Part shown: in pieces, positions 6,776 through 36,863 of the stretch
Numbering within the stretch: position 1 is the stretch's first letter
How the letters are laid out: each line of letters opens with the position of its first letter
Source: Ruminococcus sp. Phil15
GTDB taxonomy: Bacteria > Bacillota > Clostridia > Oscillospirales > Ruminococcaceae
Assembly (NCBI GenBank): GCA_001940995.1
Contig: MSHC01000023.1
Span: 331-64,330, forward strand
DNA: 64,000 nucleotides
Reading direction: 5' to 3'
The notes under the pieces: model-generated
What the model saw: the letters and a program-made list of their open reading frames with translations, nothing else
The model's database searches: none
What the model was told of the DNA's origin: nothing
Translations under genes and position numbers: made by a program

Positions 6776-6786
6776 TAATAAAAACG

Positions 6787-6984: not shown

Positions 6985-6985
6985 C

Positions 6986-8569: not shown

Positions 8570-8578
8570 AGTTTTTAT

Positions 8579-8602: not shown

Positions 8603-8616
8603 GTGTTTTATGTAGG

Positions 8617-9757: not shown

Positions 9758-9779
9758 CCGTTTTTAAGGCCGAGGACAA

Positions 9780-10700: not shown

Positions 10701-10822
10701 TTGTTTTCAACCCTCTTGATGATAATATACATAATTTATTATACAACCAATATGTGAAATTTTAGTGAACAAAATTGCAGTTTGGCATATTTTTATTAAA
10801 TCGAGCGAAAGGACGTATTGCA

Positions 10823-11215: not shown

Positions 11216-11267
11216 TTTTTATATGGACGAAAAAACCACCGCTAAAAAGCGATGGTTATATTGAAGT

Positions 11268-11304
11268 AAATCCGGGGAAAAACTATCTTCTCCGGATTTT
11301 GTTT
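11268..11304 (+). terminator. Terminator of the thioesterase-like gene
   Basis: AAATCCGGGGA pairs with TCTCCGGATTT, followed by TTGTTTTAT. It lies between two convergent genes. A second imperfect hairpin at 11234-11258 has no T tract. Confidence 0.8.
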
Positions 11305-11353
11305 TATATTCGGTTTGACAAATTAGAATTTCACGCACTTCTTATTATAAATT

Positions 11354-11866
11354 CTAGCGCATAAATAATTCTTTCTTCCTTTGTTTTAAACTAACTTCAT
11401 GATTGTTATTATAGAAACCAACAAACTCAAAAAGGATACCCAAACCGGTCAAAGCGCCGGCTGCAAAATCATCTATCGGATTATTAAAAATCATTGACAA
11501 TACTCCGAATTGATGATTTAGAATAACAAGTAAAAAACAGATACCTCCTATAATAAAGCATTTATTTAGTTTTTTTCTTTTGCTTTCATTTACACTATTG
11601 CCGTATTCTGCAACTTTCAATACAGTTTCTTTTATTTCTTCATTCATTTCCCCGCTTTTCCTTTCTCCATCCAGTAATTCTCGCAAATCAATTTCATAAT
11701 AATCTGCCATCTCAATCAGCGTATCTAAATCAGGCATATTATTGCCTGTTTCCCACCTTGATACAGACCGTCGAGATACATTAAACTTTTCTGCAAGCTG
11801 TTCCTGGGTAAGCCCATTATCTTTACGCAGTTGTTTCAAGAATTCTCCAATTTTTATTTGATTCAT
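11354..11866 (-). CDS. XRE-family regulator with C-terminal membrane segments
   Basis: A 170-aa protein starting at ATG 11866, seven bases after AGGAGG. Residues 5-60 are a Cro/C1-type HTH (LRKDNGLTQEQLAEKFNVSRRSVSRWETGNNMPDLDTL). The C-terminal half holds two hydrophobic segments (CFIIGGICFLLVILN and a weaker one near AAGALTGLGILFEFVGF), suggesting membrane attachment. The gene is visibly more AT-rich than its neighbours, a sign of recent acquisition. Its targets are unknown. A perfect dyad lies about 80 bases upstream of the start and may be its own operator. Confidence 0.85.
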   Translation of the reverse strand: MNQIKIGEFLKQLRKDNGLTQEQLAEKFNVSRRSVSRWETGNNMPDLDTLIEMADYYEIDLRELLDGERKSGEMNEEIKETVLKVAEYGNSVNESKRKKLNKCFIIGGICFLLVILNHQFGVLSMIFNNPIDDFAAGALTGLGILFEFVGFYNNNHEVSLKQRKKELFMR

Positions 11867-11947
11867 ATTTTCTGTCCTCCTTGAAAACATTATATCTGCA
11901 ATCCATAAAAAATAAAGGACACAAAGCGAGCAATGCCCTGTTTTTTC

Positions 11948-11970
11948 AATGTGACACATAATGTCACATT
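11948..11970 (-). promoter_or_regulatory. Perfect dyad upstream of the XRE gene
   Basis: AATGTGAC-ACATAAT-GTCACATT is an 8+7+8 inverted repeat, suitable for a dimeric regulator. The likely binder is the adjacent XRE protein, by position only. Confidence 0.5.
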
Positions 11971-12044
11971 CTTTATCCGTTAAGGAATTCCCGATTTGTG
12001 GGTCAGCTAATTATAACACCGCCGACGCAAAAAGTCAACGCCGC

Positions 12045-12087
12045 AAAAAAAGCAAGCCGCTCTCGATACCTGTATCAAAAGCGGCTT
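12045..12087 (-). terminator. Terminator of the amino-acid binding protein gene
   Basis: On the minus strand AAGCCGCTTTTGATAC pairs with GTATCGAGAGCGGCTT and is followed by GCTTTTTTT, 60 bases beyond the stop. Confidence 0.88.
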
Positions 12088-12146
12088 TATAATACTTTTG
12101 TACAGCCGTCCGACTAGTGCGTGACAGCTTTTTGCTTTGCGCTAAA

Positions 12147-12983
12147 TTACTTGATAGTAGTGATGTCGCTTCCGAACCACTTTTCGGAAATCTTGGCAAC
12201 CGTTCCGTCAGCCTTCATCTCGCTGAGAATTTTCTGCACTTCGTCACGGAGAGCCTGGTCGCCCTTTCTGAAGCCGATTGCATATTCTTCTTCTGAGAGT
12301 CCGTCCTCAAGGATTACGAAATCCTTGCCCGTTGACGAGATCTCGTACTCAGCAACAACAGAATCAAGGAACACGGCGTTTACAAGTCCAAGCTCCATCT
12401 GCTGAAGAGCTTCAACGTTTGTTTCCATAGCGGATATTGTGCAGGTAGAACCGATCTCGCTGCCCTCAAGGATCGTCTGAGCGGTAGAGCCGTTCTGAAC
12501 GCCGATGATCTTGTCGGCAAGGTCGCTCATTGCCTTAGCGTCGCTGTCGGCAGGAACTACGAATACCATCTTGTTTTTCATATAAGGCTCGGAGAGGTTC
12601 ATGGCCTCTGCTCTGTCCGGGTCAACCGACATACCGTTCCAGATACAGTCGATTCTTCCGCCCTTGAGGTCCTCTTCCTTTGTGCCCCAGTTGATAGGCT
12701 GCTTTACAAGCTCAACGCCGAGTCTTTTGCAGACTTCCTCTGCGAGGTCGATGTCGAAGCCCACGATTTCATCGTTTTCGTCTGTGTAGCCCATAGGCTT
12801 GAAGCTTGCGTCAAGACCGAGAACGAACTTCTTGCTGTCAAGCACTTTCTGAAGCGACTGGTCGCCGCCCTCGTCTGCCTTGGAGCTTGACGAGCTGTCA
12901 GAGCCGCCGCAGCTTGTCATCGTAAAGAGCATACCGAAAGCGAGCGTTGCGGTAAGAACTCTCTTGAGAATTGATTTTTTCAT
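12147..12983 (-). CDS. Polar amino-acid ABC transporter substrate-binding lipoprotein
   Basis: A 278-aa family-3 solute-binding protein. The start is ATG 12983 after AAGGAAG. The N-terminus MKKSILKRVLTATLAFGMLFTMTSC is a lipoprotein signal with Cys as anchor, followed by a Ser-rich linker. KFVLGLDASFKPMGYTDENDEIVGFDIDLAEEVCKRLG is the hallmark opening of this family, with VGFDIDLA the ligand-site motif. The gene is divergent from the permease and ATPase genes; the three make a complete importer. The exact amino acid is not readable. Confidence 0.92.
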   Translation of the reverse strand: MKKSILKRVLTATLAFGMLFTMTSCGGSDSSSSSKADEGGDQSLQKVLDSKKFVLGLDASFKPMGYTDENDEIVGFDIDLAEEVCKRLGVELVKQPINWGTKEEDLKGGRIDCIWNGMSVDPDRAEAMNLSEPYMKNKMVFVVPADSDAKAMSDLADKIIGVQNGSTAQTILEGSEIGSTCTISAMETNVEALQQMELGLVNAVFLDSVVAEYEISSTGKDFVILEDGLSEEEYAIGFRKGDQALRDEVQKILSEMKADGTVAKISEKWFGSDITTIK

Positions 12984-23145: not shown

Positions 23146-23739
23146 TTATTTTGGAGGAAGAACCACAGGCTGAATCTGTCTGCCCTCCAGCGCCGACATT
23201 ATCGTCTTATCGGCAAGCGTGAAATCCGCAATCATCGAGTTGGGCTTTGCCCTGAAATCGTCCTGACCGTAAGGCACAAAATAGATGTTTCTGCAATTCT
23301 GCAAAAAGCCGATGTTCTTTGCGGAAGAGCCGAGCGCATCGTTTGTCGCAATCGCTAAAACGACAGGTCTGCCGTTTCGTATGTGCGACTTTACAGCCAT
23401 TGTAACAGGAGTGTCAGTCACTCCGCCTGCAAGCTTTGCAAGAGTGTTTCCTGTGCAGGGCATAACAACAAGCACGTCAAACAGCTTCTTAGGTCCGATA
23501 GGCTCTGCGTCCTCGATACGCAGAATTGCTTTTTTGCCGCAGATCTTCTCCAGCTTTGATAGGTTCTCCTCAGCCGTGCCGAAGCGTGAGGATATTGAAG
23601 ATGCGTTGAAGGACATTATCGGCGTAAGCTGACAGCCCAGGTCAGACAGCCTCTGGGCCTGCGCAAAGGAATTGGAGAATGTGCAGAATGAGCCGCACAT
23701 AGCGTAGCCGATTTTAAGTCCGATTGGCAGCTCGGTCAT
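23146..23739 (-). CDS. dpaB: Dipicolinate synthase subunit B
   Basis: A 197-aa flavoprotein-fold protein, subunit B of the enzyme making the spore-core compound dipicolinic acid (SpoVFB). Typical text includes LKIGYAMCGSFCTFSNSFAQAQRL, PCTGNTLAKLAGGVTDTPVTMAVKSHIRNGRPVVLAIATNDALG and IYFVPYGQDD. It looks complete. ATG 23739 follows AAGGGGGCG. The start overlaps, as ATGA, the stop of an orphan DpaA C-terminal fragment. The rest of dpaA lies 8.65 kb away on the same strand. Confidence 0.94.
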   Translation of the reverse strand: MTELPIGLKIGYAMCGSFCTFSNSFAQAQRLSDLGCQLTPIMSFNASSISSRFGTAEENLSKLEKICGKKAILRIEDAEPIGPKKLFDVLVVMPCTGNTLAKLAGGVTDTPVTMAVKSHIRNGRPVVLAIATNDALGSSAKNIGFLQNCRNIYFVPYGQDDFRAKPNSMIADFTLADKTIMSALEGRQIQPVVLPPK

Positions 23740-23822
23740 ATCTTTTCGCCCCCTTCTTTTATAATACCCAGCACCGTGTCGGCAATGATTTCGCCCGACG
23801 TTATTGGGGCGACCTTTCCCGG
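23736..23822 (-). pseudogene. dpaA: dpaA 3' fragment (last 27 codons) separated from its gene
   Basis: Too short for the ORF track. From the CCG codon at 23822 the minus strand reads P-GKVAPITSGEIIADTV then LGIIKEGGEKI and a TGA that overlaps the dpaB ATG. This is the conserved DpaA/SpoVFA C-terminus (LPG-VAP-TAG-IL pattern). The 5' part of the gene at 32386-33270 runs up to IWALSLP and then diverges. Joining the two parts at the shared CCG gives a 293-residue protein, the family's usual length. I call this a displaced exon-like fragment rather than decay, because the frame and the coupling with dpaB are intact. Confidence 0.9.
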
Positions 23823-23830
23823 AGGGGAGA
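23813..23830. other. Left attachment-like site of the dpaA-interrupting element
   Basis: CCTTTCCCGGAGGGGAGA matches CCTTTGGCGGAAGGGAGA at 32466-32483 in 15 of 18 positions, with an identical CGGA core. The left half belongs to the dpaA 3' fragment and the right half to the element. Confidence 0.8.
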
Positions 23831-24199
23831 AAATAATTTGCGAAAATATGAAAAGAAAATCTTAAACGTTTTCGGCACAAAATGCCTGTCCGAAAGGACT
23901 TTTCGTTATTATATACAAAAAAATTAAACACTATTTGTTCCGACAGTGTGATAAAGCGGTGAAAAATGGATAAATTTGGCACCGCTTACATATATATGGT
24001 AATAATATAACGTTTACATGGCAGAATTTGGATTATTTTTGTATCTTATGTTTAAATGTTTGCATTGCAAAACCAATTCAAATATTACATAGCGGTTACA
24101 AAGTGGGACTTCTTGTGAGCAAGATGCACAAAATGAGTTCAAACAATTTGTAAGAGTTAACATAATTGATTACAGAACTAAAAAAAACAGAGAAAAGTC
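23831..24199. other. Non-coding left end of the element
   Basis: About 370 bases without a convincing gene. It contains a small hairpin GTCC-GAAA-GGAC near 23890 and an AT-rich stretch with AACGTTTACAT at 24009-24019, which recurs at 39523-39534 upstream of another gene cluster. No recombinase-accessory gene is visible here. Confidence 0.6.
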
Positions 24200-24250
24200 T
24201 TGAATTTGAAGCGGGAATATTGTATATTTTTAGTACGGAAACGATTTAGC
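24200..24250 (+). promoter_or_regulatory. Promoter and LacI-type operator candidate of the sugar-transport regulator
   Basis: TTGAAT (24200-24205), a 17-base spacer and TATATT (24223-24228), then ACGGAAACGATTTAG, which contains the AAACG half-site usual for LacI-family operators. The position downstream of the -10 box suits autorepression. Confidence 0.55.
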
Positions 24251-24282
24251 TGAAATAGGTCTGCGAGGAGGCAAGAGCTTAG

Positions 24283-25281
24283 ATGGTATCGCTTAAGGAT
24301 ATTTCCGCAAGATGCGGGGTCTCTGTTGCGACAGTCAGCAAGGCTCTTAACGGTCACAAGGATGTAAGCGCAGCGACAAGAGAAAAGCTTCTCAGAGTAG
24401 CCAAGGAAATGGGATACTTCCCGAATTCACAGGCAAGGGCGCTTAAAACCAACCGTACATATAATCTCGGCGTGATGTTTCTCGATGCAGCCGACAGCGG
24501 CTTCACCCACGAGTTTTTTGCTAAGGTGCTTAACTCGTTTAAAACTGCGGCGGAAGCGTACGGCTACGATATCACGTTTATAAACAGGAACATCGGCGGC
24601 AGAATGATGACCACCTATGAGCACTGTAAGTACAGAAACGTTGACGGCATAATAATTGCCTGCACAGACTTTACCGACCCGGACGTTTACGAGCTTGTAA
24701 GCGGCGATATACCGGTAGTAACGATAGACCACAGGTTCGACGGCAGGACTGCTATCCTCTCGGATAACGGCGCAGGAATGCGAAGCCTCGTAGGCTACGT
24801 TCACGAAAAGGGTCATTCAAAAATCGGTTTTATAATGGGAAACAAATCCTCGGTTGCCGAGAAAAGACTTGAAGCTTTCAAAAACGAATGCGAAAAATTC
24901 GGCATAAGAATTGACGAAAGATACATTCTTCCGGGAGATTTCCATAATGCGGACCTGACTTATGAGAGAACCGTTCAGCTTATGAGGCTGAGCGATCCGC
25001 CGACCTGTATCTTTATGCCGGACGACTATTCGGCAATAGGCGGACTTAATGCCCTGAAGGATATGGGCTATAAGGTTCCCCAGGACGTATCGGTCGTAGG
25101 CTATGACGGAATTGGTCTTTCACAGATCATTTCACCGAAGCTTACAACCTACCGCCAGGACACTAACGAAATAGGCAGACTCGCTGCCAAGTCACTGGTG
25201 GAATTAATCGAGAACCCTCAAACCTTTAACGAGGTTTTATTAGTAGACGGTGAGCTTATAGAGGGGGAAACCGTCAGATAA
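24283..25281 (+). CDS. LacI-family transcriptional regulator
   Basis: A 332-aa regulator. Residues 1-55 form the LacI HTH (LKDISARCGVSVATVSKALNGHKDVSAATREKLLRVAKEMGY) with the hinge helix SQARALKTNRT. The rest is a periplasmic-binding-protein-like sugar sensor ending with SVVGYDGIGLSQIISPKLTTYRQD. GGAGG lies 11 bases upstream of ATG. It is followed 57 bases later by the sugar-binding lipoprotein gene and very likely controls that transporter. It lies inside the dpaA element. Confidence 0.93.
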   Translation: MVSLKDISARCGVSVATVSKALNGHKDVSAATREKLLRVAKEMGYFPNSQARALKTNRTYNLGVMFLDAADSGFTHEFFAKVLNSFKTAAEAYGYDITFINRNIGGRMMTTYEHCKYRNVDGIIIACTDFTDPDVYELVSGDIPVVTIDHRFDGRTAILSDNGAGMRSLVGYVHEKGHSKIGFIMGNKSSVAEKRLEAFKNECEKFGIRIDERYILPGDFHNADLTYERTVQLMRLSDPPTCIFMPDDYSAIGGLNALKDMGYKVPQDVSVVGYDGIGLSQIISPKLTTYRQDTNEIGRLAAKSLVELIENPQTFNEVLLVDGELIEGETVR

Positions 25282-25338
25282 ATTAAGGCATTAATAAACA
25301 ACTATACTAATGCACACAATTTAAGGAGGAAGATTTCA

Positions 25339-26751
25339 ATGAACAAACTTAAGAGAGTTCTCTCAGGAACACTCGCACTTGCTATGGCAGCTTCAATGCT
25401 CACAGCTTGCGGCGGCGATGATTCTTCATCTAAGGCAGCAGGCAACAGCGGCGACGCTAGCAACGGCGGCGGCGACACAAGTGACAAGACAGTCATCAAG
25501 GTTTACACCTTCACAGAAGAAACACAGGGTCAGATCGACAGATTCCTCGAAAAGAATCCTGATATGGCAGCAAAGTATGAATTCAAGGTAACACTTGAAG
25601 CTACGGCTGCTGACTATATCTCAAAGGTTTCTTCAGCTCTTGCCGGCGACGATGCTCCGGACCTTTTCCTTGCTGACGCTGACTATGCACAGCTTTTTGC
25701 AGGTCTTGAAGGTACAGCTACACTCGCTGAACTCGGCGTTGAGTTCGATGAGAGCGACTACTACAGCTACATGCTCGACTTCACAACAGTTGACGGCAAC
25801 AGAATGGCTATCTCCCACCAGGCAGCTCCTGGCGCAGTTTTTTACAGAACTGACTATGCTGAGCAGTACCTCGGAGTTAAGACTCCTGAAGAGATGCAGG
25901 CTAAGATGAGCAACTGGGAAGACTTCAAGGCTGTTGCTGACACACTCAAGGATAACGGAATCTACATGGTTTCCGGTATTGATGAACTCAAGAGATGCTT
26001 CATGGCTAACAGAGACACAGCATGGGTTGACGCTGACATGAACTACTGCCTCGACGAAGACCTCGTTAAGCAGTACCTCGAAGTTACTAAGTACCTTTGC
26101 GATGAAAAGGAAACACAGTATGCCGCTGCTACACAGTGGACAAACGACTGGTACACTGGTATGAAGGACGGCGTATTCTGCTACTTCGGATGCACATGGT
26201 ACCTCCACTACACAATCAAGCCAAACTGCCTTACAACACTTACAGGTGCTAAAGACGATAAGGGTAACCCAACAGTTGCTGACGCTGACTATGTAGAGGG
26301 CAACGGTTCTTACGGCAAGTGGGCCATGATCCAGGGACCAATGGCTTACTTCTGGGGCGGTACATGGTGGTACGGTTCCGATAAGGCTGCTGCAGATCCT
26401 GCTAAGAAGGAAGCTGTTTCCAGCATTATCGAATTCTACTGCTGCGACGCTGAAGCTATGACAGACTTCGCTAAGACATCCGGCGACTTCGTTTCCAAGA
26501 AGTCCGTTGTTGACGCTATCAAGTCTGACGAAGCATTCAAGAACCCATTCCTCGGCGGTCAGAACCACTACGAGTTCTTCGCTTCTGCTGCTGATAACGT
26601 AAACGCTAAGACAATGTCTAAGTTCGACGATACATTCAACACAGCTGTTAACGATGCAACTAACAAGTATGTTCTCGAAGGCGCTTCTATCGACGAGGCT
26701 ATCGCTTACATCGGCGAATATGCTAAGTCTAAGATCGAGGGTCTTAAGTAA
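25339..26751 (+). CDS. Sugar ABC transporter substrate-binding lipoprotein (family 1)
   Basis: A 470-aa extracellular binding protein. MNKLKRVLSGTLALAMAASMLTAC is a lipoprotein signal with lipobox LTAC, followed by a Ser/Gly/Asp linker. Family-1 features include SSALAGDDAPDLFLADADYA and the repeated aromatic stretch FGCTWYLHY...WGGTWWYGS, likely the sugar-stacking surface. Codon bias is very strong, suggesting high expression. AAGGAGGAAG precedes the start. It works with the two permeases downstream. No dedicated ATPase is in the element, so the MsmX-type ATPase at 34.8 kb is a candidate. The sugar is not identifiable. Confidence 0.92.
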   Translation: MNKLKRVLSGTLALAMAASMLTACGGDDSSSKAAGNSGDASNGGGDTSDKTVIKVYTFTEETQGQIDRFLEKNPDMAAKYEFKVTLEATAADYISKVSSALAGDDAPDLFLADADYAQLFAGLEGTATLAELGVEFDESDYYSYMLDFTTVDGNRMAISHQAAPGAVFYRTDYAEQYLGVKTPEEMQAKMSNWEDFKAVADTLKDNGIYMVSGIDELKRCFMANRDTAWVDADMNYCLDEDLVKQYLEVTKYLCDEKETQYAAATQWTNDWYTGMKDGVFCYFGCTWYLHYTIKPNCLTTLTGAKDDKGNPTVADADYVEGNGSYGKWAMIQGPMAYFWGGTWWYGSDKAAADPAKKEAVSSIIEFYCCDAEAMTDFAKTSGDFVSKKSVVDAIKSDEAFKNPFLGGQNHYEFFASAADNVNAKTMSKFDDTFNTAVNDATNKYVLEGASIDEAIAYIGEYAKSKIEGLK

Positions 26752-26794
26752 TTTAAATATCGTTTAAATTATTAACATCATAACTCGCAAACTC

Positions 26795-26827
26795 AGACGG
26801 GTGGGGAAGCCCACCCGTCTTTAGTTT
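26795..26827 (+). terminator. Attenuating hairpin between binding protein and permeases
   Basis: The perfect stem AGACGGGTGGG / CCCACCCGTCT is followed by a modest TTAGTTTT. Its position after the binding-protein gene would let that protein be made in excess over the permeases. Confidence 0.75.
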
Positions 26828-26859
26828 TCGATAATCAAAACAAAGTAGGAGTGTGAAAA

Positions 26860-27855
26860 ATGGCTTCAACAACTAAGAAACGTGCTAATCTTGAGAAGAA
26901 CTACTTTGGCTACATTTTTATTGCGCCGTTCTTTCTCACATATTTAATATTCCAGGTTGTGCCGCTGATTGACACCTTCCGTTACGCTCTTACAGATGCT
27001 AAGGCATGGTATATGGACCCTAACCAGGCTTATAACTTCGTAGGCCTCGACCAGTTCAAGTTCGTTGTAAACGACCGGTTCTTTAAGGACGCGTTCTTTA
27101 CAACGCCTGTAATGTGGATCATGGGCTTTATCCCTCAGCTCGGCATTGCTCTTTTGCTTGCCGCATGGTTTACAAATGAAAAAATCAGAGTTAAGGGACA
27201 GGGCTTCTTCAAGGTTGTATTCTATATGCCTAACATTATGACTGCGGCTACAATCGGCGTATTGTTCCTCGCATTCATCAGATCTAACGGATTTATCCAC
27301 AGCTTCTGTGTTGCAATCGGTTATATTGAAGACGCTCGTTATCCTATCACCAGCGAATGGTTCGGCAGAGGTATCGTAGCTTTCATTAACTTCTGGATGT
27401 GGTATGGTCAGACAATGATCGTTCTTACCGCAGGTATCCTCGGTATCAATCCGTCATTCTTCGAGGCTGCTTCTATCGACGGAGCATCCGGCTTCCAGAC
27501 ATTCGGAAGAATTACTTTGCCGCTTATCAGACCTATTATGACATACTCGCTTGTAACCTCCCTCATCGGCGGTTTCCAGATGTTCGATGTTCCGAATATG
27601 CTCGCTACAGGCGACTCTCATGCTGCTTTCGGTCCTAAGATTTCTACAATCGTTATGTACATAAAGTCTATCGCTTATAGCGGAACATTCTCTGTCGGCA
27701 GAGCTTGTGCCGCGTCTGTAATTCTTTTCGCCGTTACCGCCGTCGTTTCTCTCTTCCTATTCTGGATTATGAGAGATAAGGATGCGGCTAAGGCTGCTAA
27801 GGCTGCTAAGAAGCGTGCAAAGGAACAGGCAGCTTTGGAAGGAGGTAACATATAA
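26860..27855 (+). CDS. Sugar ABC transporter permease (MalF type)
   Basis: A 331-aa permease with about six membrane segments. The EAA loop reads FFEAASIDGASGFQTFGRITLPLIRP. The start follows AGGAGTGTGAAAA. The C-terminal tail KDAAKAAKAAKKRAKEQAA is Lys/Ala-rich and cytoplasmic. It is adjacent to the second permease with no spacer. Confidence 0.93.
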   Translation: MASTTKKRANLEKNYFGYIFIAPFFLTYLIFQVVPLIDTFRYALTDAKAWYMDPNQAYNFVGLDQFKFVVNDRFFKDAFFTTPVMWIMGFIPQLGIALLLAAWFTNEKIRVKGQGFFKVVFYMPNIMTAATIGVLFLAFIRSNGFIHSFCVAIGYIEDARYPITSEWFGRGIVAFINFWMWYGQTMIVLTAGILGINPSFFEAASIDGASGFQTFGRITLPLIRPIMTYSLVTSLIGGFQMFDVPNMLATGDSHAAFGPKISTIVMYIKSIAYSGTFSVGRACAASVILFAVTAVVSLFLFWIMRDKDAAKAAKAAKKRAKEQAALEGGNI

Positions 27856-28779
27856 ATGGCTAACTATTCAGGTACCGTTAAAACGGTAAAGGGCGGTTAC
27901 CATGCCCGTATACTTCTTGTCAAGACTCTTGTATACATCGTATGTATCTTCCTTACAATTCTCTCAATCGCTCCATTTGTAATAATGGTATTTAATGCTT
28001 CAAAGTCAAGATTTGAAATTCAGCAGGGCAACCTTGAATGGTGGCCGGAGCTTGAAAACAGGACTCTTGTGTCTTTGCTTCCATCTAAATCCTTTATTGC
28101 AAACGGTAAATATCTTCTTACCAGTAAGGCTCTTAACCTGCCGTTTGCAAGAGGCTTCTTGAACTCTTTCATTATCGCAGCAGGCGCAACGATCCTTTCT
28201 GTGTACTTCTCTGCACTTACCGCTTACGGTTTTGCAGTTTACAGATTCAAGCTTAATAAACTCCTCTACGGATTTATTATGATGATTCAGATGGTACCTA
28301 CACAGGTTACCGTTATCAGCTTCGTTGAAATGATGAACAAGTGGGGACTTACAAACAGCTACCTGCCGTTTATCCTCCCTTCGATCGCCGCACCTAGTAC
28401 GGTATTCTTCCTGAGGCAGTATATGCAGTCAGCCCTTTCGATTGAAATGGTTGAAGCAGGACGAATCGACGGTTCGAGCGAATTCGGAATTTTCAACAGA
28501 CTGGTACTTCCAATCTTAAAGCCGGGTATGGCAACAATGGCTATCTTCGCAATGGTTACTAACTGGAACAACTACCTCTTGCCGACACTCTTGATTGACA
28601 AGCTGGAAATGTCCACAATCCCAATGCTCGTTGGTAAGCTGAATGGTAATAAGTATTCGACCGAGTACGGCGCAGTTTACTGGGGACTTACTCTTACAGC
28701 ATTCCCTCTTATCGTATTCTACCTCGTTCTTTCTAAGTACATTATTGCCGGCGTTGCTCTCGGTGGCGTTAAGGAATAA
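27856..28779 (+). CDS. Sugar ABC transporter permease (MalG type)
   Basis: A 307-aa permease with about six membrane segments. The EAA loop is MVEAGRIDGSSEFGIFNRLVLPILKPG. The start directly follows the stop of the MalF-type gene, with GGAGG inside that gene. Together they form the membrane channel for the upstream binding protein. Confidence 0.93.
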   Translation: MANYSGTVKTVKGGYHARILLVKTLVYIVCIFLTILSIAPFVIMVFNASKSRFEIQQGNLEWWPELENRTLVSLLPSKSFIANGKYLLTSKALNLPFARGFLNSFIIAAGATILSVYFSALTAYGFAVYRFKLNKLLYGFIMMIQMVPTQVTVISFVEMMNKWGLTNSYLPFILPSIAAPSTVFFLRQYMQSALSIEMVEAGRIDGSSEFGIFNRLVLPILKPGMATMAIFAMVTNWNNYLLPTLLIDKLEMSTIPMLVGKLNGNKYSTEYGAVYWGLTLTAFPLIVFYLVLSKYIIAGVALGGVKE

Positions 28780-28812
28780 TTACAAGTGTATTAGATTTAT
28801 AGTTGTAATGTT

Positions 28813-28846
28813 AAAAGCCTCTGCTTTGTGCAGGGGCTTTTTTCTG
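28813..28846 (+). terminator. Terminator of the sugar importer operon
   Basis: AAAGCCTCTGC-TTTGT-GCAGGGGCTTT with six T. It separates the transporter from the oppositely oriented recombinase gene. Confidence 0.88.
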
Positions 28847-28865
28847 TCAGTCTGAAATGCGAAAC

Positions 28866-30293
28866 TTATGCCCATATAAGCTTTATGCCGCCGCTCCCGA
28901 TTTCTACCCTCGATATCAGAATTGTGCATAACCGCTTCTTCTGTGCAAAGGACAGCGGCGCAAAATCAAAATCCTGTTCAGTCTGAGTCTTGCTGTGCTT
29001 CGGCATAAGTAGCTCACGCTCTCTATTAAGCTCCCTTATCTTCTTTTCAATAACCACCGCTCCCGCCGAGTCGCTCTCGCACAACTGCTGTGCGAGAAGC
29101 TCTAACCGCCTGTCTGATTCTATCAGCTTTAGCATATCCTCTCCGCTCGTTTCCTCCTTCGCAAACAGCGATAGATATCTCATTCTCTCCACGATAAGAG
29201 GTGCGAGCATTTTTTCCAGCTCGTCGCAGGTAACTGTGTGCGTTTCGTCGCAGATGTGCATTTTCCGCCCACGGCAGCAAAGGTATTTTCTGTCTTTGTA
29301 CTTCTTTGTGTAAAGCGAGTATCCGCAGGCGCATTTCATAAGCCCCTGAAGCCAGCTTGTTTCGCCGCTGTGATTTGCACATACCGATTTCCCACGCCTT
29401 GCCTGCGCCGACAGCCACAGTCCGGAGTCTATAATGCCCGTGTGACTGCCGATGGTGATATGTTCGCCCTCAAAGGACGTGAATTTTGACGCCTTTCGCT
29501 CCTCAGGCGACGAATAGCTTATGCATCCATGCACGCCGTCAAACTCGGAAATATCGCTTGTTATTACAGCGCCGCAGTTTCGCAAGTACCTGTATACGGC
29601 TAGGTCTGCCTTCACATAAACAGGGTTGCGGAGCATCCTGCGAACAGAGGTAGCAGACAACGCCTTGCCTGCCCTCGATTTAACGCCCTGCCCGTAAAGC
29701 CACTTAGACAGACCTGTAAGGCTCATGCCGCCGTAAACGTACCGTTCATATATCTCCTTGACAATGCACGACTGTGTCCCCTCCGTAAGCCTGTGAGATG
29801 GGATTCCGTGTATCGTGCATGGCTCACGGATGTAACCGAACGGCGGTGCTCCGCCTAGATACAGTCCAAGCCTGCCCCTCGCATAGTAGTTGTCCGTGAC
29901 GCGCTGACGTATTGCGTTTCGCTCCATCTCCGCAAACATCATAAGGATATTGAGCATTACTGTGCTTGCGCCGTTTGACGTGTCAAAGCCCTCCGTTTTG
30001 GAAACAAGCGAAACGCCGTGTTTTTTTAGCTCGCCCGTGAGGTTTACAAAGTCGAGCAGCGAACGGCTTATTCTGTCAAGCCGGTAGATTATAATTCGTG
30101 AGATTTTCCCCTCACGCACTCTTTCCATAAGCTCGCTGAAGGACGGGCGGTCGAGATTTGCCCCCGTGTAGCCCTTGTCGGAAAATATGTAGGGGTCGTC
30201 TCCCGCAATCGCCCTGCAATCGTCAATCTGACTTTCTATGCTTATGCTGTCCCGTTTGTCCGCCGACTGTCTTGCGTAAATCGCTGACCTCAA
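28866..30293 (-). CDS. Large serine recombinase
   Basis: A 475-aa site-specific recombinase. The resolvase-type catalytic domain begins AIYARQSADKRDSISIESQ, with the nucleophilic Ser in ARQS. YRLDRISRSLLDFV and MLNILMMFAEMERNAIRQRV are conserved catalytic/helix motifs. A recombinase domain (GYIREP...LTGLSKWLYGQGV, RRMLRNPVYV) and a zinc ribbon CACGYSLYTKKYKDRKYLCC...C follow, then a coiled-coil region near 380-430. The start is TTG, nine bases after AAGGCGG. It lies within the interval that splits dpaA and is the obvious candidate for moving it. A CATATAATA motif upstream resembles mother-cell sigma -10 boxes. Confidence 0.93.
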   Translation of the reverse strand: MRSAIYARQSADKRDSISIESQIDDCRAIAGDDPYIFSDKGYTGANLDRPSFSELMERVREGKISRIIIYRLDRISRSLLDFVNLTGELKKHGVSLVSKTEGFDTSNGASTVMLNILMMFAEMERNAIRQRVTDNYYARGRLGLYLGGAPPFGYIREPCTIHGIPSHRLTEGTQSCIVKEIYERYVYGGMSLTGLSKWLYGQGVKSRAGKALSATSVRRMLRNPVYVKADLAVYRYLRNCGAVITSDISEFDGVHGCISYSSPEERKASKFTSFEGEHITIGSHTGIIDSGLWLSAQARRGKSVCANHSGETSWLQGLMKCACGYSLYTKKYKDRKYLCCRGRKMHICDETHTVTCDELEKMLAPLIVERMRYLSLFAKEETSGEDMLKLIESDRRLELLAQQLCESDSAGAVVIEKKIRELNRERELLMPKHSKTQTEQDFDFAPLSFAQKKRLCTILISRVEIGSGGIKLIWA

Positions 30294-30396
30294 TCGCTCT
30301 TACCGCCTTTCGGTAGGTTTCAAAGTAGTTTTCCGTCATCTCAAAAATTTCAAGTCTTGTGCCGTTTTCAGTTATCCTTTCATCAAGCTTTTTCAA
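30223..30396 (-). CDS. Possible 57-aa ORF overlapping the recombinase start
   Basis: Not in the ORF track. A TTG at 30396, seven bases after GGTGG, opens MKKLDERITENGTRLEIF and ends at a TGA inside the recombinase gene in another frame, overlapping it by about 70 bases. The first 35 codons, upstream of the recombinase, look codon-like and charged. It could couple translation to the recombinase or be a remnant of an older N-terminal gene. It is unrecognised and uncertain. Confidence 0.35.
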   Translation of the reverse strand: MKKLDERITENGTRLEIFEMTENYFETYRKAVRAIEVSDLRKTVGGQTGQHKHRKSD

Positions 30397-30420
30397 TTTA
30401 TTACCACCACTTCCACAGCA

Positions 30421-30450
30421 TATTATATGCGCAATTTCTTGACAATAGAG
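30421..30450 (-). promoter_or_regulatory. Sporulation-sigma-like promoter of the recombinase
   Basis: The minus strand reads CTCTATT, 14 bases, then CATATAAT. The -10 matches the sigma-E type (CATACAAT) in seven of eight bases and the sigma-K type (CATANNNTA) fully; the -35 keeps TATT. No TTGACA lies at the correct distance. The same CATATAATA 9-mer occurs upstream of dpaA. It overlaps the divergent LCP promoter. Confidence 0.5.
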
Positions 30451-30467
30451 GCAAAATAGTATACAAT
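30439..30467 (+). promoter_or_regulatory. Promoter of the LCP gene
   Basis: TTGACA (30439-30444), a 17-base spacer and TACAAT (30462-30467). A short dyad CCTGTA...TACAGG follows in the leader. Confidence 0.85.
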
Positions 30468-30534
30468 TATACTCGCCTGTACTGCGTTTTGCAATACAGG
30501 TGTGTATAAAGCAATAAAGAAAGGACGTGAGTAA

Positions 30535-31554
30535 ATGCTTCGCAGGGAGTATTACGATGAAAAAGACGACGATTTTGAAGAAGAAGAGATAAAAGAGCCG
30601 CCCGGACGCAGGAGAAGTATCTTGGGCAGAATTTTGCTGTTTATAATTTTCCTCGCAGTTGTCCTGTTTTGCCTTTACTCAGTCGCAGTCCTGAAATATA
30701 TCAGCGACGTCAACACAGTTGAAACGGGCGAGCGATATGAACACGGGGTCCAGACGATGCAGGACGACGATGTCAGAAACATTCTCCTTATCGGTACGGA
30801 TACCAGAAGCGTCAGCGATAAAGGCAGAGCTGACACAGTTATCCTGCTTACCATAAACAGCCGCACAAAAGAGCTGTATGTTACGTCGTTTATGCGTGAT
30901 TCATACGTCGATGTGCCGGGGTACGGTTTTACAAAGCTAAATGCCTCCTACCGATACGGCGGTGCTGAGCTTCTTATGGACACGCTTGAGGTCAATTTCA
31001 AGGTGGATATAGACGAGTATGTGTATGTAAATTTCGACTCGTTCTCAAAAATAGTTGACGCAGTCGGCGGCATCGAGATCACAGTTACAGATGCCGAAGC
31101 AGAGGGTATGAAGCCTCCTATGGCAGAGCAGAACGACCTTCTCGGCAATCCCCGTGGCACGGACTATCTCAGCGGCGGAGGAACGTATACGATGAACGGA
31201 AATCAGGCGCTTGCCTATGCCAGACTCCGCTATGTCGGAAACGCAGATTTTCAGCGTACCGAGAGGCAGCGTGAGGTAATAAGGAAAATCTTTGAGAAAG
31301 CAAAAGACCTTTCGATAGGGGAGCTTGACGGCTTTCTCTCTGCCTGTGCGTCAAGTGTCACAACCAATATGAGCAAAAAGGATATGTACCTGCTTTCGCT
31401 CCGCCTGCTGCCGCTTATGAAATATGACTTTAACGAGCTTAGGATTCCCTGCGACGACGGCTACAAGGGCAGTATGATAGACGGCCAGTCGGTTCTGGAA
31501 ATAGACTTTGATAAGAACATAGAGCTTATTAAGGATAAGGTCTATGGAGAATGA
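30535..31554 (+). CDS. LytR-CpsA-Psr (LCP) family protein
   Basis: A 339-aa type II membrane protein. A charged cytoplasmic start (RREYYDEKDDDFEEEE) is followed by one membrane helix (about 29-50, ILGRILLFIIFLAVVLFCLYSVAV) and an external LCP domain. LCP motifs include NILLIGTDTR, GRADTVILLTI, SFMRDSYVDVPG and ALAYARLRYVGNADFQRTERQREVI. LCP enzymes attach polyprenyl-linked glycopolymers to peptidoglycan. It lies inside the dpaA element, divergent from the recombinase and followed by an SGNH hydrolase gene. Confidence 0.93.
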   Translation: MLRREYYDEKDDDFEEEEIKEPPGRRRSILGRILLFIIFLAVVLFCLYSVAVLKYISDVNTVETGERYEHGVQTMQDDDVRNILLIGTDTRSVSDKGRADTVILLTINSRTKELYVTSFMRDSYVDVPGYGFTKLNASYRYGGAELLMDTLEVNFKVDIDEYVYVNFDSFSKIVDAVGGIEITVTDAEAEGMKPPMAEQNDLLGNPRGTDYLSGGGTYTMNGNQALAYARLRYVGNADFQRTERQREVIRKIFEKAKDLSIGELDGFLSACASSVTTNMSKKDMYLLSLRLLPLMKYDFNELRIPCDDGYKGSMIDGQSVLEIDFDKNIELIKDKVYGE

Positions 31555-31622
31555 CGGCGTTAGATCAATGACGGCAAGCAAAGAACTTAACGGATATTAT
31601 TATTATAACAAGGGGAATTGAA

Positions 31623-32252
31623 ATGAACGACAAGGAATTAAAAGTGCAGCGTTACCGTGAGGAAAACAAAACCGTCAAATACGGACAGACGGTTTTCGCA
31701 GGCTCATCACTTATGGAGATGTTTCCTATAAACAAGCTGTTAGTTGAACATAACGACAGTATGGTAATCTACAACCGTGGAATAGGCGGATTTATATCAC
31801 GGGAGCTTTTAGAGGCAGTTGATGTGTGCATTACGGATTTGAAGCCGTCAAAGGTGTTTATAAACATAGGCACAAACGACCTTAGCGACAGCCGTATACC
31901 AATTTCGGAGCTTATGGAAAACTACGATAGAATTATTACCGAGATAGAATCGAAGCTTCCGAAAGCGGTGGTTTACCTTATGGCATATTATCCGGTAAAT
32001 TATGATGCTGCTGCGGAGAATATGAAAGAATGTCTGAAAATTCGCAGCAACGAAAAGATACGCACCGCTAATGCGGAAGTAAAAAAGCTTGCCGAAAAGC
32101 ACGGACAGAGATATATCGACATAAATAAAAATCTTATGGACGGGCAGGGCAGACTTAAAGCCGAATACACCATAGAGGGTATGCACATAAAAGAGTGCGG
32201 CTATCGGGCAGTATATGATGATATAATGGCTTATGTAAAAGAGGAAATATAG
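31623..32252 (+). CDS. SGNH/GDSL hydrolase
   Basis: A 209-aa cytoplasmic-looking esterase. The nucleophile block is VFAGSSLMEMF, followed by YNRGIGGF, INIGTNDLSD and GMHIKECGY with the catalytic His. No signal peptide. Acyl-ester substrates such as lipids or acetylated sugars are typical, but the target is unknown. The start follows AAGGGGAATTGAA, 68 bases after the LCP gene; the two are likely co-transcribed. Confidence 0.87.
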   Translation: MNDKELKVQRYREENKTVKYGQTVFAGSSLMEMFPINKLLVEHNDSMVIYNRGIGGFISRELLEAVDVCITDLKPSKVFINIGTNDLSDSRIPISELMENYDRIITEIESKLPKAVVYLMAYYPVNYDAAAENMKECLKIRSNEKIRTANAEVKKLAEKHGQRYIDINKNLMDGQGRLKAEYTIEGMHIKECGYRAVYDDIMAYVKEEI

Positions 32253-32272
32253 CTTTTGTACAGGCTGTAATT

Positions 32273-32305
32273 TCGGCAGCTATTGTCATAAGCTGTCGAT
32301 TTTTC
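32273..32305 (+). terminator. Terminator of the LCP-SGNH unit
   Basis: The perfect stem TCGGCAGCT / AGCTGTCGA with a nine-base loop is followed by TTTTT. Confidence 0.82.
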
Positions 32306-32385
32306 CCGTAAGCATTTTCTCCTCACATCATATTGAAACTGCAATGCTCAAGAGCAGGCATACGGATTTAAAAGATAAGTTTTGA

Positions 32386-33270
32386 TTATGTATTATGCAC
32401 AGCCACACCCCAACAGGTGCGGCTGTTTATTTTTTTAGCGTTCGCCGCTTTTTCGCAATCCTTTTCCTTTGGCGGAAGGGAGAGCGCCCAAATTACCTTC
32501 AGATGCCTGTCGGAGGCAGACTTGAAATCAACGCCGCCCGGCTTTGATGCGAGGTCGATAATAAGCGTGTCAGAGCTTACCTTTTCAAGCTCTTTTTCTC
32601 CGAGAAGCACCGCAGGCACGGTGTTTATAACTATGTCAAAATCGCCGAGACTGTCGCAAAGATTTGCTATCGGTACAGGTGAGTAGCCAAGCGTCTTAGC
32701 ATATACAAGGTCACGCCCTTTTCTGGCACAGACGTGTACCTTTGCGCCAAGCGCCGAGAACACCCTTGCCGTCGCCTTTGCAACCCTGCCAAAGCCGAGA
32801 ATAAGTACCTTAGAGCCTGCAATAGTCCTCGCCGTGTTCTCCATGGCAATCGACAGCGCACCCTCGGCAGTCGGCACGCAGTTTTCGATTATAAGCTCCT
32901 CTCTGCCGAAATAGTCGGCGCAGAAAAGCTTGCGGCTCTTTATTCTTTCGCAAAGCTCCGGCGGCATCTTTCCGCCTACGATGATAGAGTCGTTTTTGCA
33001 GAAATTCATAAGCCTGTCGATGTATATAGGTTCGTTTGAAAAAGGTGCGTTTACCGTCTTTCCGTCGCTCGTCGCAGGCAGGGGAAGCACCACAACATCG
33101 GGCATAAATCCTATATCGGAAAAACCCGAAAGCTTCGTGCAGTCCTCGCATTTGAAGTCACTGCTGAGTCCGAGCGTGTAAACTCTGTCTGAAAACTTAC
33201 TTAAACGTGCGGCAAGAAAATTCTGTCTGAAATCTCCGCCGACAACGAGAAATGTCGTGTTTTTGTCCAT
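32386..33270 (-). CDS. dpaA: Dipicolinate synthase subunit A, interrupted (codons 1-266 plus 28 foreign codons)
   Basis: The NAD(P)-dependent subunit SpoVFA/DpaA of dipicolinate synthase. The N-terminal domain MDKNTTFLVVGGDFRQNFLAARL, the catalytic-region text CVPTAEGALSIAMENTARTI, the Rossmann motif VLILGFGRVAKATARVFSALGAKVHV and LIIDLASKPGGVDF are all present. Up to IWALSLP (codon 266, CCG at 32475-32473) it follows the family. The last 28 residues (PKEKDCEKAANAKKINSRTC onward) do not, and the final codons run through a terminator hairpin. The true C-terminus sits at 23736-23822. As annotated it is the left part of a gene interrupted by an element. AGGAGG is separated from ATG by a hairpin. 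Confidence 0.93.
   Translation of the reverse strand: MDKNTTFLVVGGDFRQNFLAARLSKFSDRVYTLGLSSDFKCEDCTKLSGFSDIGFMPDVVVLPLPATSDGKTVNAPFSNEPIYIDRLMNFCKNDSIIVGGKMPPELCERIKSRKLFCADYFGREELIIENCVPTAEGALSIAMENTARTIAGSKVLILGFGRVAKATARVFSALGAKVHVCARKGRDLVYAKTLGYSPVPIANLCDSLGDFDIVINTVPAVLLGEKELEKVSSDTLIIDLASKPGGVDFKSASDRHLKVIWALSLPPKEKDCEKAANAKKINSRTCWGVAVHNT
32400..32437 (+). terminator. Terminator hairpin inside the foreign tail of dpaA
   Basis: CAGCCACACC and GGTGCGGCTG form a stem with one mismatch, followed by TTTATTTTTTT on the plus strand. It lies within the element-derived last codons of the truncated dpaA and would block plus-strand readthrough toward dpaA. Confidence 0.7.
32466..32483. other. 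Right attachment-like site of the dpaA-interrupting element
   Basis: CCTTTGGCGGAAGGGAGA shares the CGGA core and 15 of 18 positions with the left site at 23813-23830. The left half is element DNA and the right half is dpaA. Confidence 0.8.
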
Positions 33271-33445: not shown

Positions 33446-34750
33446 TTACAGCGTGTAGCCAAAGCCCAGAACCTCAAAATCCTTGTCCTCGAAGCCCTCT
33501 GCCATCACGATTTCAACCGTGTAGGTCTGCTTTTTCGGGGAGATTTTGAGTAACGTAACCGTCGGGTCGCCCCAACCGCCCGAGGTTATCCCGTTTACGG
33601 GAATGTCGTTTACCTCGCCGTCCTCGGAGGTGATTTTCACCAGCACCTTGCCGAGATTGCTGTTCAAGCCGTTTTCTTTGAACAGGAGATAGAGGTTTTT
33701 AGCCTCAACGGTAAATTTAAGCGGAGCGTTGTTTTCGGCGTCGCCGTCAAATGTCCAGCCGTTTTTGAATGTGTTGATTGTAGAGCCGACCTTCCAGCTT
33801 CCCGGCTCGTCTGCCGTCAGCTTGTCGCCCTCTATGATGTGGCAGTTGACATAGCTGTCGTTTATGAGATAGATAGGGGTAAGTGTGAAGTCCTTTTCAT
33901 ATCTCTCCGCCTCTGCAACGGTATCGAAGTAGTATGCAATAATATCTCTGACTATCTTGTGTCCGTTGCCGTTAGGGTGCGACTGGTCGCTTGAAAAGTC
34001 CTTCCATGTCATCTGCCCGTTTTCAAACATATAGGTAAGACCGTCGGCGTAGCTTATCATAGGGAGGTTGTAGTATTCTCCGAGAGTTTTCATATAGTCC
34101 TGAGCTGTGTAGCCGTCCTCTGTGATAGAAAACAGCAGCACGACCGCCGTCTTTGGGTCTTTTTCGCAGATTGTTCTGATAATGCCCTCGTATGCGCTCT
34201 GGTAAGAGAGGTCGGTTCCGTCGTTTACCGCAAACTCTATAAACACAACGTCAGGGTCGTGGACAAGCACATCTCTTTCGAGCCTGAATGTTCCTAGCAT
34301 TGAAGGAGTGCCGCTAAGTCCTGCGTTAACGTGGATAACGTTGTCGCCCGTTCCGAAGTTTTCGGCAAAATATTCGCTTGTCAGCTTTGCGTAGCAGGCG
34401 TTCGGACCGGCGGAAATTCCCTCTGTGATAGAGCCGCCTATGTATGCCATAGTGATCTGCTCGCCGTTCTTTGCCCTTTTTATAACATCGAGCATATTGT
34501 TCGGGTTGCCTGTTGAAACAAGGCTCTTTTTGAGCATCATCTGATAATACTCCTCGTAGGTTGTGGGCGTAAATTCTTCCTCGCTTGATACGTCCTCTGA
34601 GGAAACGGAGCTGTCGGCAGTGCTGCCGGCAGGACTATCTGGGGCAGGGGACGACGTGCTGCCGTCGCTTCCGCCGCATCCGACGGTGCTCAGGCACAGC
34701 GACAGCACAAGCGCCGTGCCGAGAATATTTTTCATAAGCTTTTTAAGCAT
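33446..34750 (-). CDS. SGNH-family esterase lipoprotein
   Basis: A 434-aa extracellular lipoprotein. MLKKLMKNILGTALVLSLCLSTVGC is the lipoprotein signal, followed by a ~40-residue Ser/Pro/Glu linker. SGNH blocks: YIGGSITEG (nucleophile Ser), NAGLSGTPS, FIEFAVNDG and DQSHPNGNGH (catalytic Asp-His). A C-terminal ~130-residue beta-rich domain resembles a carbohydrate-binding jelly roll. Such enzymes deacetylate plant-wall or wall polysaccharides; the target is inferred. The start follows AAGGGAG. It lies just outside the dpaA element. Confidence 0.87.
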   Translation of the reverse strand: MLKKLMKNILGTALVLSLCLSTVGCGGSDGSTSSPAPDSPAGSTADSSVSSEDVSSEEEFTPTTYEEYYQMMLKKSLVSTGNPNNMLDVIKRAKNGEQITMAYIGGSITEGISAGPNACYAKLTSEYFAENFGTGDNVIHVNAGLSGTPSMLGTFRLERDVLVHDPDVVFIEFAVNDGTDLSYQSAYEGIIRTICEKDPKTAVVLLFSITEDGYTAQDYMKTLGEYYNLPMISYADGLTYMFENGQMTWKDFSSDQSHPNGNGHKIVRDIIAYYFDTVAEAERYEKDFTLTPIYLINDSYVNCHIIEGDKLTADEPGSWKVGSTINTFKNGWTFDGDAENNAPLKFTVEAKNLYLLFKENGLNSNLGKVLVKITSEDGEVNDIPVNGITSGGWGDPTVTLLKISPKKQTYTVEIVMAEGFEDKDFEVLGFGYTL

Positions 34751-34760
34751 AAATAACTCC

Positions 34761-34800
34761 CTTCCACAAAAGACCCCTCCAGAAAACTGAAGGGGTTTAA
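34761..34800 (-). terminator. Hairpin between msmX-type ATPase and SGNH lipoprotein
   Basis: On the minus strand AAACCCCTTCAG pairs with CTGGAGGGGT around TTTT, followed by CTTTTG. It touches the ribosome site of the lipoprotein gene, so limited readthrough may be what feeds that gene. Confidence 0.75.
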
Positions 34801-34819
34801 GTAAACTTGGTTGTTTAGT

Positions 34820-35962
34820 TTAGTTGATGAGGGACTTTTCAGTTTCCTTATCAAAGATATGCATTCTGTTAGGATCGATAGCGATCTGAATGTGATCCTG
34901 TGGACGAGCTGTTGAACGAGGCGAAACTCTAGCTGTGAGGTTGATGCCTTCGCAGTTGATGTAGAGGTAAGTTTCAGCACCCATCATTTCTGTTACTTCA
35001 ACTTCAGCTTCGATAACGCCTGTTGTAGCGGAAGCAATGATATCAGCTTCATCGTGGAGGCACTCAGGACGAACGCCCATTACGATTTCCTGGTCTACGA
35101 GCGGCTCAAGAACTTCAGCGTCAGCCTTAGCTTCAGGAACTTCTACTGTAAACTTCTTGCCTCTTGTTGTCTTGGTGTCCTCAGAGCCGAACTCTACGAG
35201 GTACTTGCCGTCAACCTTTCTGAGGATAGCGTCGATGAAGTTCATCTGAGGAGAACCGATAAATCCGGCAACGAACTGGTTAACAGGATTCTGGTAGAGG
35301 TTTGTAGGTGAGTCGATCTGCTGGATGTAACCGTCCTTCATAACTACGATTCTGTCGCCCATTGTCATAGCTTCTGTCTGGTCGTGCGTTACATAGATAA
35401 ATGTAGTACCGAGCTTCTTGTGGAGCTTGGAGATCTCAGTTCTCATCTGAGCTCTGAGCTTAGCGTCGAGGTTGGAAAGAGGCTCGTCGAGGAGGAATAC
35501 CTGAGGCTCACGAACGATAGCACGTCCGAGCGCAACTCTCTGTCTCTGACCGCCGGAGAGAGCCTTTGGCTTTCTGTCGAGGAGGTGTGAGATATCGAGG
35601 ATTCTAGCAGCTTCTTCAACCTTTCTAGCGATTTCGTCCTTAGGAACCTTACGGAGCTTAAGACCGAATGCCATGTTTTCAAATACAGTCATGTGAGGAT
35701 AGAGGGCGTAGTTCTGGAAAACCATTGCGATATCTCTGTCCTTAGGAGCGATGTCGTTTACGAGTCTGTCTCCGATGTAAAGCTCACCCTCGGTGATTTC
35801 TTCAAGACCTGCGATCATTCTAAGGGTTGTGGACTTACCACAGCCAGAAGGACCAACAAGGATAATGAATTCCTTATCCTTAATCTCGATGTTACAATCT
35901 GAAACAGCTACAACGCCGCCCGGATACTTCTTATAAATTTCTCTTAATGATACACTTGCCAT
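34820..35962 (-). CDS. msmX: MsmX/UgpC-type multi-sugar ABC transporter ATPase
   Basis: A 380-aa ATPase. Start ATG 35962, nine bases after GGGAGG, gives [29 protein letters not shown]. Walker [10 protein letters not shown], signature [14 protein letters not shown], Walker [17 protein letters not shown] and the switch His in VTHDQTEAM are intact. A C-terminal ~120-residue OB-type regulatory domain ([12 protein letters not shown]) marks the CUT1 class. No permease adjoins it, which is usual for the shared ATPase serving many sugar importers. The CUT1 permeases in this window are candidate clients. Confidence 0.94.
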
Positions 35963-36125
35963 TTCTTGAGGACCTCCCAATTCTTTTTTGCCAGATATAG
36001 TGTTTATATCATAGCTATGCTATTATAATAACAAATTTTATCAATTTGGGCAAGATGTTTTTTTACTAAACTTTAAAATGCTCATTTATTTATATTGACG
36101 AAAAAAAGGAGCCTTTTGTGAAAAA

Positions 36126-36863
36126 TCAAAATTCGCCGTCAAAAAGGGGGTCGATTTGCGAAAGTTCTTTGTGCATAATTTCCAAACACCCTCCAAGCGG
36201 TAAACTTTCGTCCAATTTGAGTCCGCCGATTTGTATTCTTTTCAGATATTCGACAGAATTACCCAATGCCTCGAACATCTTTTTGACCTGATGGAACATA
36301 CCCTCGTGAAGTATGACGTAGCAGGAGTTTTTGTTTTCGATGCCCTCAAATTCCGCCGGCATACATTCCTCGCCAGTCAAAAGCGTGATGCCCGACTTAA
36401 ATCTCTCGGCATAGCTTTCGTCCCACGGTTTTTCAAGCTCAGCGTAGTACTTTTTCGGAACGTGGTTTTTCGGAGAGAGTATCCTGTGTGCGAAATCCCC
36501 GTTGTCCGTTATGAACACAAATCCTTCTGTGTCCTTGTCAAGCCTGCCTGCCGGAAAAAGTCCCTCACGCCTAAGCTCGGGCGGAAGCAGAGAAAGCACC
36601 GTAGGGGACAGTCCGTTCCTTGTGGAACAGACTACCCCCTGCGGCTTATTCATCATTATGTAAAGATATCTCCGATAGCGTATCGGCTCGTCGTTTACGC
36701 AGACTGCCGCTTCTTCGGGGCAAAGCTTGAAGTCTGACTTCTTCTGCACTGCGCCGTCAACTGTTACCCTGCCCCTCCTGCAAAGCTCTTTTACATCGCT
36801 TCTGGAGAGATCGCTTCTCTGCGAGGCTATGAATTTGTCGAGTCGCATACTGGTCTTTGGCAT
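36126..36863 (-). CDS. rsuA: 16S rRNA pseudouridine synthase, RsuA family
   Basis: A 245-aa enzyme. Residues 6-60 form an S4 RNA-binding domain (MRLDKFIASQRSDLSRSDVKELCRRGRVTVDG). The catalytic motif is GRLDKDTEGFVFITDNG with the essential Asp, followed by HVPKKYYAELEKP and EGMFHQVKKMFEALGN. Lengths and motifs fit RsuA better than RluB. The start ATG 36863 follows AAGGACG by nine bases. Confidence 0.9.
   Translation of the reverse strand: MPKTSMRLDKFIASQRSDLSRSDVKELCRRGRVTVDGAVQKKSDFKLCPEEAAVCVNDEPIRYRRYLYIMMNKPQGVVCSTRNGLSPTVLSLLPPELRREGLFPAGRLDKDTEGFVFITDNGDFAHRILSPKNHVPKKYYAELEKPWDESYAERFKSGITLLTGEECMPAEFEGIENKNSCYVILHEGMFHQVKKMFEALGNSVEYLKRIQIGGLKLDESLPLGGCLEIMHKELSQIDPLFDGEF

Follow-up and report, generated by a model that had tools for sequence, protein, structure and literature searches.

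Sporulation genes interrupted by intervening elements have been reported for sigK, spsM, spoVFB, spoVR, gerE, yabG and kamA, and the elements include the non-phage gin (PMC5595907, PMC4191935, PMC10747680, PMC6957869). In the skin element of Bacillus subtilis, excision is tied to sigma-E, and the directionality factor Skr is encoded by a 64-amino-acid ORF that overlaps spoIVCA by 101 nt with a +1 shift (PMC6957869). Our search of the open-access literature found no report of an element in dpaA. The dpaA gene itself is expressed in the mother cell during sporulation and is needed for the formation of heat-resistant spores.

The window analyzed here is a 64,000-nt stretch of Ruminococcus sp. Phil15 from one contig (C23) of a 2.08 Mb draft genome that is 88.8% complete (coded G000). 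In this window dpaA, the gene for dipicolinate synthase subunit A, is broken at codon 266 by an element of 8,653 bp (about 23821-32473). The 5' exon (32474-33270, minus strand, with the start at 33270) matches DpaA_N, comprises codons 1-265 plus the CC of codon 266 and ends after ...KVIWALSLP; in the unexcised gene the reading frame continues to 32386 with a tail encoded by the element. The 3' exon (23736-23820, minus strand; GKVAPITSGEIIADTVLGIIKEGGEKI and a stop codon) provides the last 27 codons and overlaps the start of dpaB, which is intact (23146-23739, minus strand; TIGR02852 and PRK08305 above cut-off). With the CC of the proline codon as the core, the joint reads CTT CC|G GGA AAG GTC (L P G K V) and the frame is restored (LP|GKVAP). 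The rejoined DpaA is a full-length protein of 293 amino acids with a DpsA score of 281.4, up from 247.5 (cut-off 261). As in skin-like elements, a mother-cell sporulation gene is split and its halves would rejoin in frame.

Within the untranslated 3' exon, the dpaA frame shows pS of 0.48-0.66 versus pN of 0.18-0.22, a pattern absent from the other frames. The genome also contains spoIVA (above cut-off) and a sigE-type sigma factor gene (slightly below cut-off). This coding pattern, together with the presence of dpaB, spoIVA and the sigE-type gene, suggests that dpaA is probably rejoined in nature.

The two ends of the element share the CC core (32475-32474 and 23822-23821). The attL-like junction (32440-32500, minus strand) reads ...CTCTCCCTTCC|GCCAAAGGAAAAGGATTGCGAAAAA and the attR-like junction (23796-23860, minus strand) reads TTTTCATATTTTCGCAAATTATTTTCTCCCCTCC|GGGAAAGG. 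The attR arm, TTTTCATATTTTCGCA...TTTTCTCCCCTCC, is strongly alike and almost constant across G000, G002 and G003, despite recombinases that are only 53-55% identical (window versus G002/G003). Joined as an attP, the element-side arms form inverted repeats, and in eight of nine elements these match best at shift 0; the ninth element entered this test one base off. The center of the attP-like palindrome is the crossover point. Between 0 and 512 of 5000 shuffles were equally good, with individual elements differing in strength; at the level of sequence, the common center of the palindromes is stronger evidence than these single-element shuffle counts. Judged by sequence only, the element has the att organization of skin-like elements, with matching sites at both ends and a common core. 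These sites bracket all of the cargo, which lies on both sides of the recombinase gene. An assembly artefact or a chance match was ruled out, since independent genomes have the very same junction.

For the dpaA search, the query was a composed, consensus-like sequence corresponding to no real protein and used only for locating genes and truncation points. At least 12 of the 398 sampled genomes have an interrupted dpaA. The same nucleotide junction was found in G000, G002, G003, G025, G206, G260, G306, G346, G147, G217, L052 and L053, and every dpaA element of the recombinase clade with readable junctions uses this position; for L045 and L046, the DNA compared did not reach as far as the 5' junction. 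Within the genus of the window, the same element, minus the SGNH hydrolase gene, is present in G002 (RGIG1923 goat caecum contig, L044/L060) and in G003. A second genus, g126, has dpaA5'-LCP-recombinase and the importer in all four sampled genomes, with the junction at the identical nucleotide. The layout dpaA5'-LCP-recombinase-permease2-permease1-binding protein-lacI-dpaA3'-dpaB is contiguous in G206 and G306 (the latter with an additional HAD phosphatase), is split over two contigs in G260 and could be traced in G346 as far as the binding protein, where the contig ends. Two rpoB genes were seen in each of G206 (C23/C15) and G346 (C307/C228), one of them on a very long branch, which is probably contamination of these drafts.

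Elsewhere the same site holds other cargo. The dpaA elements of a Ruminococcus-like group carry large surface proteins (L052, 6885-9838; L053, 6675-9811) with CttA_N, a cellulose-binding protein family, slightly below cut-off; a second protein of these elements has a KKRK-type membrane-anchor end. The element of L046 carries terminase genes, and the L045 element, which precedes the dpaA 3' exon, has genes for a TIR-TPR protein and for a Rep ORF2/G2P-like protein (3081-5249 and 7610-8398). In L087, L093 and L094 a recombinase lies between parts of dpaA and dpaB. Other breaks in the operon were also observed. In L069 (G128; 4265-9122) and L070 (G086), dpaA is cut at about codon 246 (SKPGG), and the adjacent serine recombinase is a different one, 25-27% identical; the dpaA 3' part and dpaB follow about 4 kb further on in L069, and the stretch of L070 that was examined contains no dpaA 3' part. 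In two termite-gut drafts (L049, about 4450-12860; L047, about 11500), dpaB is apparently split near codon 13 (GSFCTH) by DNA holding a recombinase of the dpaA clade, and L049 keeps an intact dpaA upstream.

The element of the window has its own site-specific large serine recombinase (28866-30293, minus strand; 475 amino acids, TTG start) with Resolvase, Recombinase and Zn ribbon domains. It sits in the middle of the element on the dpaA strand, with the cargo on the opposite strand. The catalytic-region residues Y6, R8, Q9 and S10 are invariant across 15 relatives, and the recombinase ORF is open in every complete copy of the element. In the tree, 16 dpaA-site recombinases, two dpaB-site recombinases and L048 form one group, from which 29 other large serine recombinases are separate; it contains a supported clade for each of the window genus, g126 and the Ruminococcus-like genus. 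The group stayed intact (support 99) after the addition of 78 viral recombinases. A close phage source was sought and rejected: none appeared in the best 79 viral loci, the best match to a phage record being about 30% over 91%. Those best 79 viral loci also contained no homologues of dpaA, dpaB, LCP, permease or lacI.

A 57-amino-acid ORF (30223-30396, minus strand) lies upstream of the recombinase gene and shares 71 nt with it in a +1-shifted frame. ORFs of the same layout are present in G002 and G003, with weakly conserved sequence (7-14 identical of 33-34 residues, and little pS/pN contrast in pairs with G002). We liken it to Skr by its layout, its sequence conservation being weak; by this analogy its product is a candidate directionality factor that probably helps the recombinase. 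A -10-like motif of the GCATATAAT type (30422-30429, minus strand), for which sigma-E/K is a candidate reading, precedes the small ORF and the recombinase in G000, G002 and G003. A consensus scan for a sigma-E promoter gave no significant match, and the conserved block upstream of the recombinase is partly the -35 box of the divergent, sigma-A-like LCP promoter (TTGACA-17-TACAAT, 30439-30467, plus strand, 11/12 match); we count these two observations, like the weak conservation of the small ORF, against the explanation that we favor below.

On the attR side, the cargo begins with a LacI-family regulator (24283-25281, plus strand, as are all cargo genes; profile matches), followed by the substrate-binding lipoprotein of an ABC importer (25339-26751), which was assigned by position and a signal/lipobox and was without a match in Pfam and NCBIfam searches. 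Two sugar permeases with BPD_transp_1 matches come next, one UgpA/MalF-like (26860-27855) and one UgpE/MalG-like (27856-28779). The attL side contains an LCP (LytR-CpsA-Psr) glycopolymer transferase (30535-31554; LytR_cpsA_psr) and an SGNH/GDSL hydrolase (31623-32252; Lipase_GDSL_2) that is private to this copy, with no match in the G002 or G003 loci. No ATPase for the importer lies inside the element; a UgpC/MalK-type ATPase is encoded just outside it (34820-35980, minus strand) and is near dpaA in the relatives examined too. Searches with Pfam-type domains and PHROGs found no phage structural, packaging or replication genes in the element, the PHROGs matches being the integrase family phrog_95 and generic families, so that the element does not qualify as a prophage or prophage remnant.

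The first-pass annotation, made from the sequence of the window, had described a dpaA element with metabolic and wall cargo in place of phage genes, namely a LacI-regulated importer that lacks the ATPase, plus genes for an LCP glycopolymer ligase and for an SGNH hydrolase. The gene calls and domain matches bear this out at the places given, with the binding protein lacking a family match. The range it gave, 24283-32252, contains the cargo, but the element delimited by the CC core is larger. Its claim of host-like codon use is fair but weak: the cargo falls inside the range of 38 flanking ORFs, with three genes near the edge (binding protein, rank 36/38; permease 1, 34/38; SGNH hydrolase, 34/38). 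The comparison that it proposed, a search at dpaA for the same recombinase with different cargo, revealed one recombinase clade at the same nucleotide with prophage, surface-protein or replication-TIR cargo elsewhere.

Seven genus-mates (G001, G004-G009) have an intact dpaA; the importer is present in all seven and such a recombinase in none. Five of them have contigs long enough to show the region downstream of dpaB, and it contains LCP-permease2-permease1-binding protein(-lacI). The order in G001 is dpaA-dpaB-LCP-permease2-permease1-binding protein-lacI-atz-pnp; G008 has the same without a lacI match, and in G004, G005 and G007 dpaB and LCP are separated by about 4-5 kb that include an ABC gene. 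The contigs of G006 and G009 stop before the block, and their importer binding protein was found on another contig. The gene order of the window, with dpaA3'-dpaB between lacI and atz, is the intact order circularly permuted. A neighboring rluB-ATPase-SGNH-lipoprotein block (window 33446-36863, compared with L054-L062) also has opposite orientations relative to dpaA in interrupted and in intact genus-mates.

The rpoB tree divides interrupted and intact species into two groups, and the importer tree gives the same split. In the latter, the g126 importer stands beside that of g114 and further free-standing importers and apart from the window genus, and the LCP genes of both genera fall in one group together with free-standing genes of other genera. 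In other genera the importer is a free-standing operon with no LCP or recombinase adjoining. Judged by the synteny in intact genus-mates and by trees that place the cargo with its own genus, the importer and LCP (with lacI) are native in each genus and inherited with the host. Synteny and trees rule out a foreign origin of the cargo, and the grouping of g126 with g114 in the importer tree rules out its transfer between the window genus and g126. The proposal that a sporulation gene serves as a landing site for metabolic genes thus stands in one part, as the att sites enclose the whole block, but the importer and LCP are native rather than foreign. The first-pass annotation had also named what would speak against it, an importer ancestral at the locus with only a smaller region mobile; the importer is indeed ancestral there, at least at genus level, but the att sites do not confine the mobile region to a smaller part.

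How the native genes came to lie between att sites can be read in more than one way. The LCP-importer-lacI block may ancestrally have stood downstream of an intact dpaAB, with a rearrangement in the G000/G002/G003 lineage that put the block and the recombinase between att sites. We give this close to an even chance: it fits the seven genus-mates that keep the importer with an intact dpaA and no such recombinase, the free-standing importers of other genera and the permuted gene order of the window, but the same LCP-recombinase-importer order in dpaA of g126 would then call for two captures. Identical gene order and orientation in two non-sister genera, and one recombinase clade per genus, favor the reverse history, in which an ancient composite dpaA element was lost by genus-mates that healed dpaA, kept the cargo downstream of dpaB and lost the recombinase, while the cargo dispersed in other genera. 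That history is a reasonable possibility to which we nonetheless do not incline; it needs several separate events, and no recombinase or attP remnants were found in the intact genus-mate genomes. As to a benefit, native sugar-import and wall-glycopolymer genes might have been packaged into dpaA independently in the two genera because it is useful in itself to delete them from the mother cell, or to shield them from loss by linking them to a gene required for sporulation. Such a developmentally deleted native operon seems to us unlikely.

Given the split gene, the exact in-frame joint, the palindromic att arms, the recurrence, the recombinase clade and the native cargo, we consider it probable that this is a skin-like intervening element at a recurrent dpaA site, excised in frame by its recombinase during sporulation and enclosing native cargo. 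From these features we infer the following course. The dedicated large serine recombinase, probably aided by the small upstream +1-frame protein, would join the two split-codon sites during sporulation, the whole 8.65 kb would leave as a circle, and dpaA would close in frame. In the mother cell DpaAB would then produce dipicolinate, and the forespore would retain the element; by analogy, restriction of excision to the mother cell is plausible. The native LCP, importer and lacI genes, being enclosed by the att sites, would travel with the element. A cell losing excision could not make DPA, and the recombinase would be kept for this reason.

It is very unlikely that dpaA is instead dead in these lineages and the element a relic. 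The dpaA gene (32474-33270) of the interrupted clade does diverge faster than the neighboring genes (51% for G000 versus G002/G003, 55-60% to intact relatives), which could reflect relaxed selection and which we count against in-frame excision; but the untranslated 3' exon shows a purifying pattern, the att arms are conserved, the recombinases are open in all complete copies, dpaB is intact, and spoIVA and the sigma factor are present. Hardly credible is the idea that mobility is limited to a small region around the recombinase, with the importer just beside it, for although the importer and LCP are native dpaAB neighbors in relatives, it is the two dpaA junctions that carry the palindromic att arms, which places the arms outside all cargo, and cargo flanks the recombinase on both sides.

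In-frame excision at this locus would add dpaA, and a large family of mostly gut anaerobes, to the known range of programmed gene rearrangement in sporulation. One recombinase lineage holds the same nucleotide across genera while the cargo changes, making dpaA a recurring, putatively self-healing insertion site, and the window provides an example of a native metabolic operon, rather than a phage, within predicted excisable DNA. There is a warning here for annotation pipelines, which will label dpaA as truncated and such strains as DPA-negative. The dpaA site may also serve directly as a natural attB with which to use a new set of serine recombinases.

Compared with known systems, the element shares with skin in sigK of Bacillus subtilis (SpoIVCA, Skr) a large serine recombinase, a split mother-cell sporulation gene and a short upstream ORF that runs, in the +1 frame, into the 5' end of the recombinase gene. 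Unlike skin, it targets dpaA, lacks prophage genes, has its recombinase in mid-element and carries native metabolic cargo. The vfbin element in spoVFB (dpaB) of Bacillus weihenstephanensis follows the same logic in the same dipicolinate synthase operon, but it hits the other subunit gene, which is intact in the window, and has phage-related genes (PMC4191935, PMC10747680). Like the window element, gin in gerE of Bacillus cereus ATCC10987 is a non-phage intervening element, excised in sporulation (PMC5595907); it differs in being 28.6 kb long with three serine recombinases in gerE and restriction-modification and unknown genes, whereas the window has one recombinase, in dpaA, and a native importer operon. 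Similarly, yin in yabG of Clostridium botulinum and SPbeta in spsM are serine-recombinase elements in late mother-cell genes, but they are prophages or prophage-like and have other targets (PMC10747680, PMC4191935). Relative to the known skin-like elements, the one described here is new in its site (dpaA), its own recombinase lineage and its native metabolic cargo.
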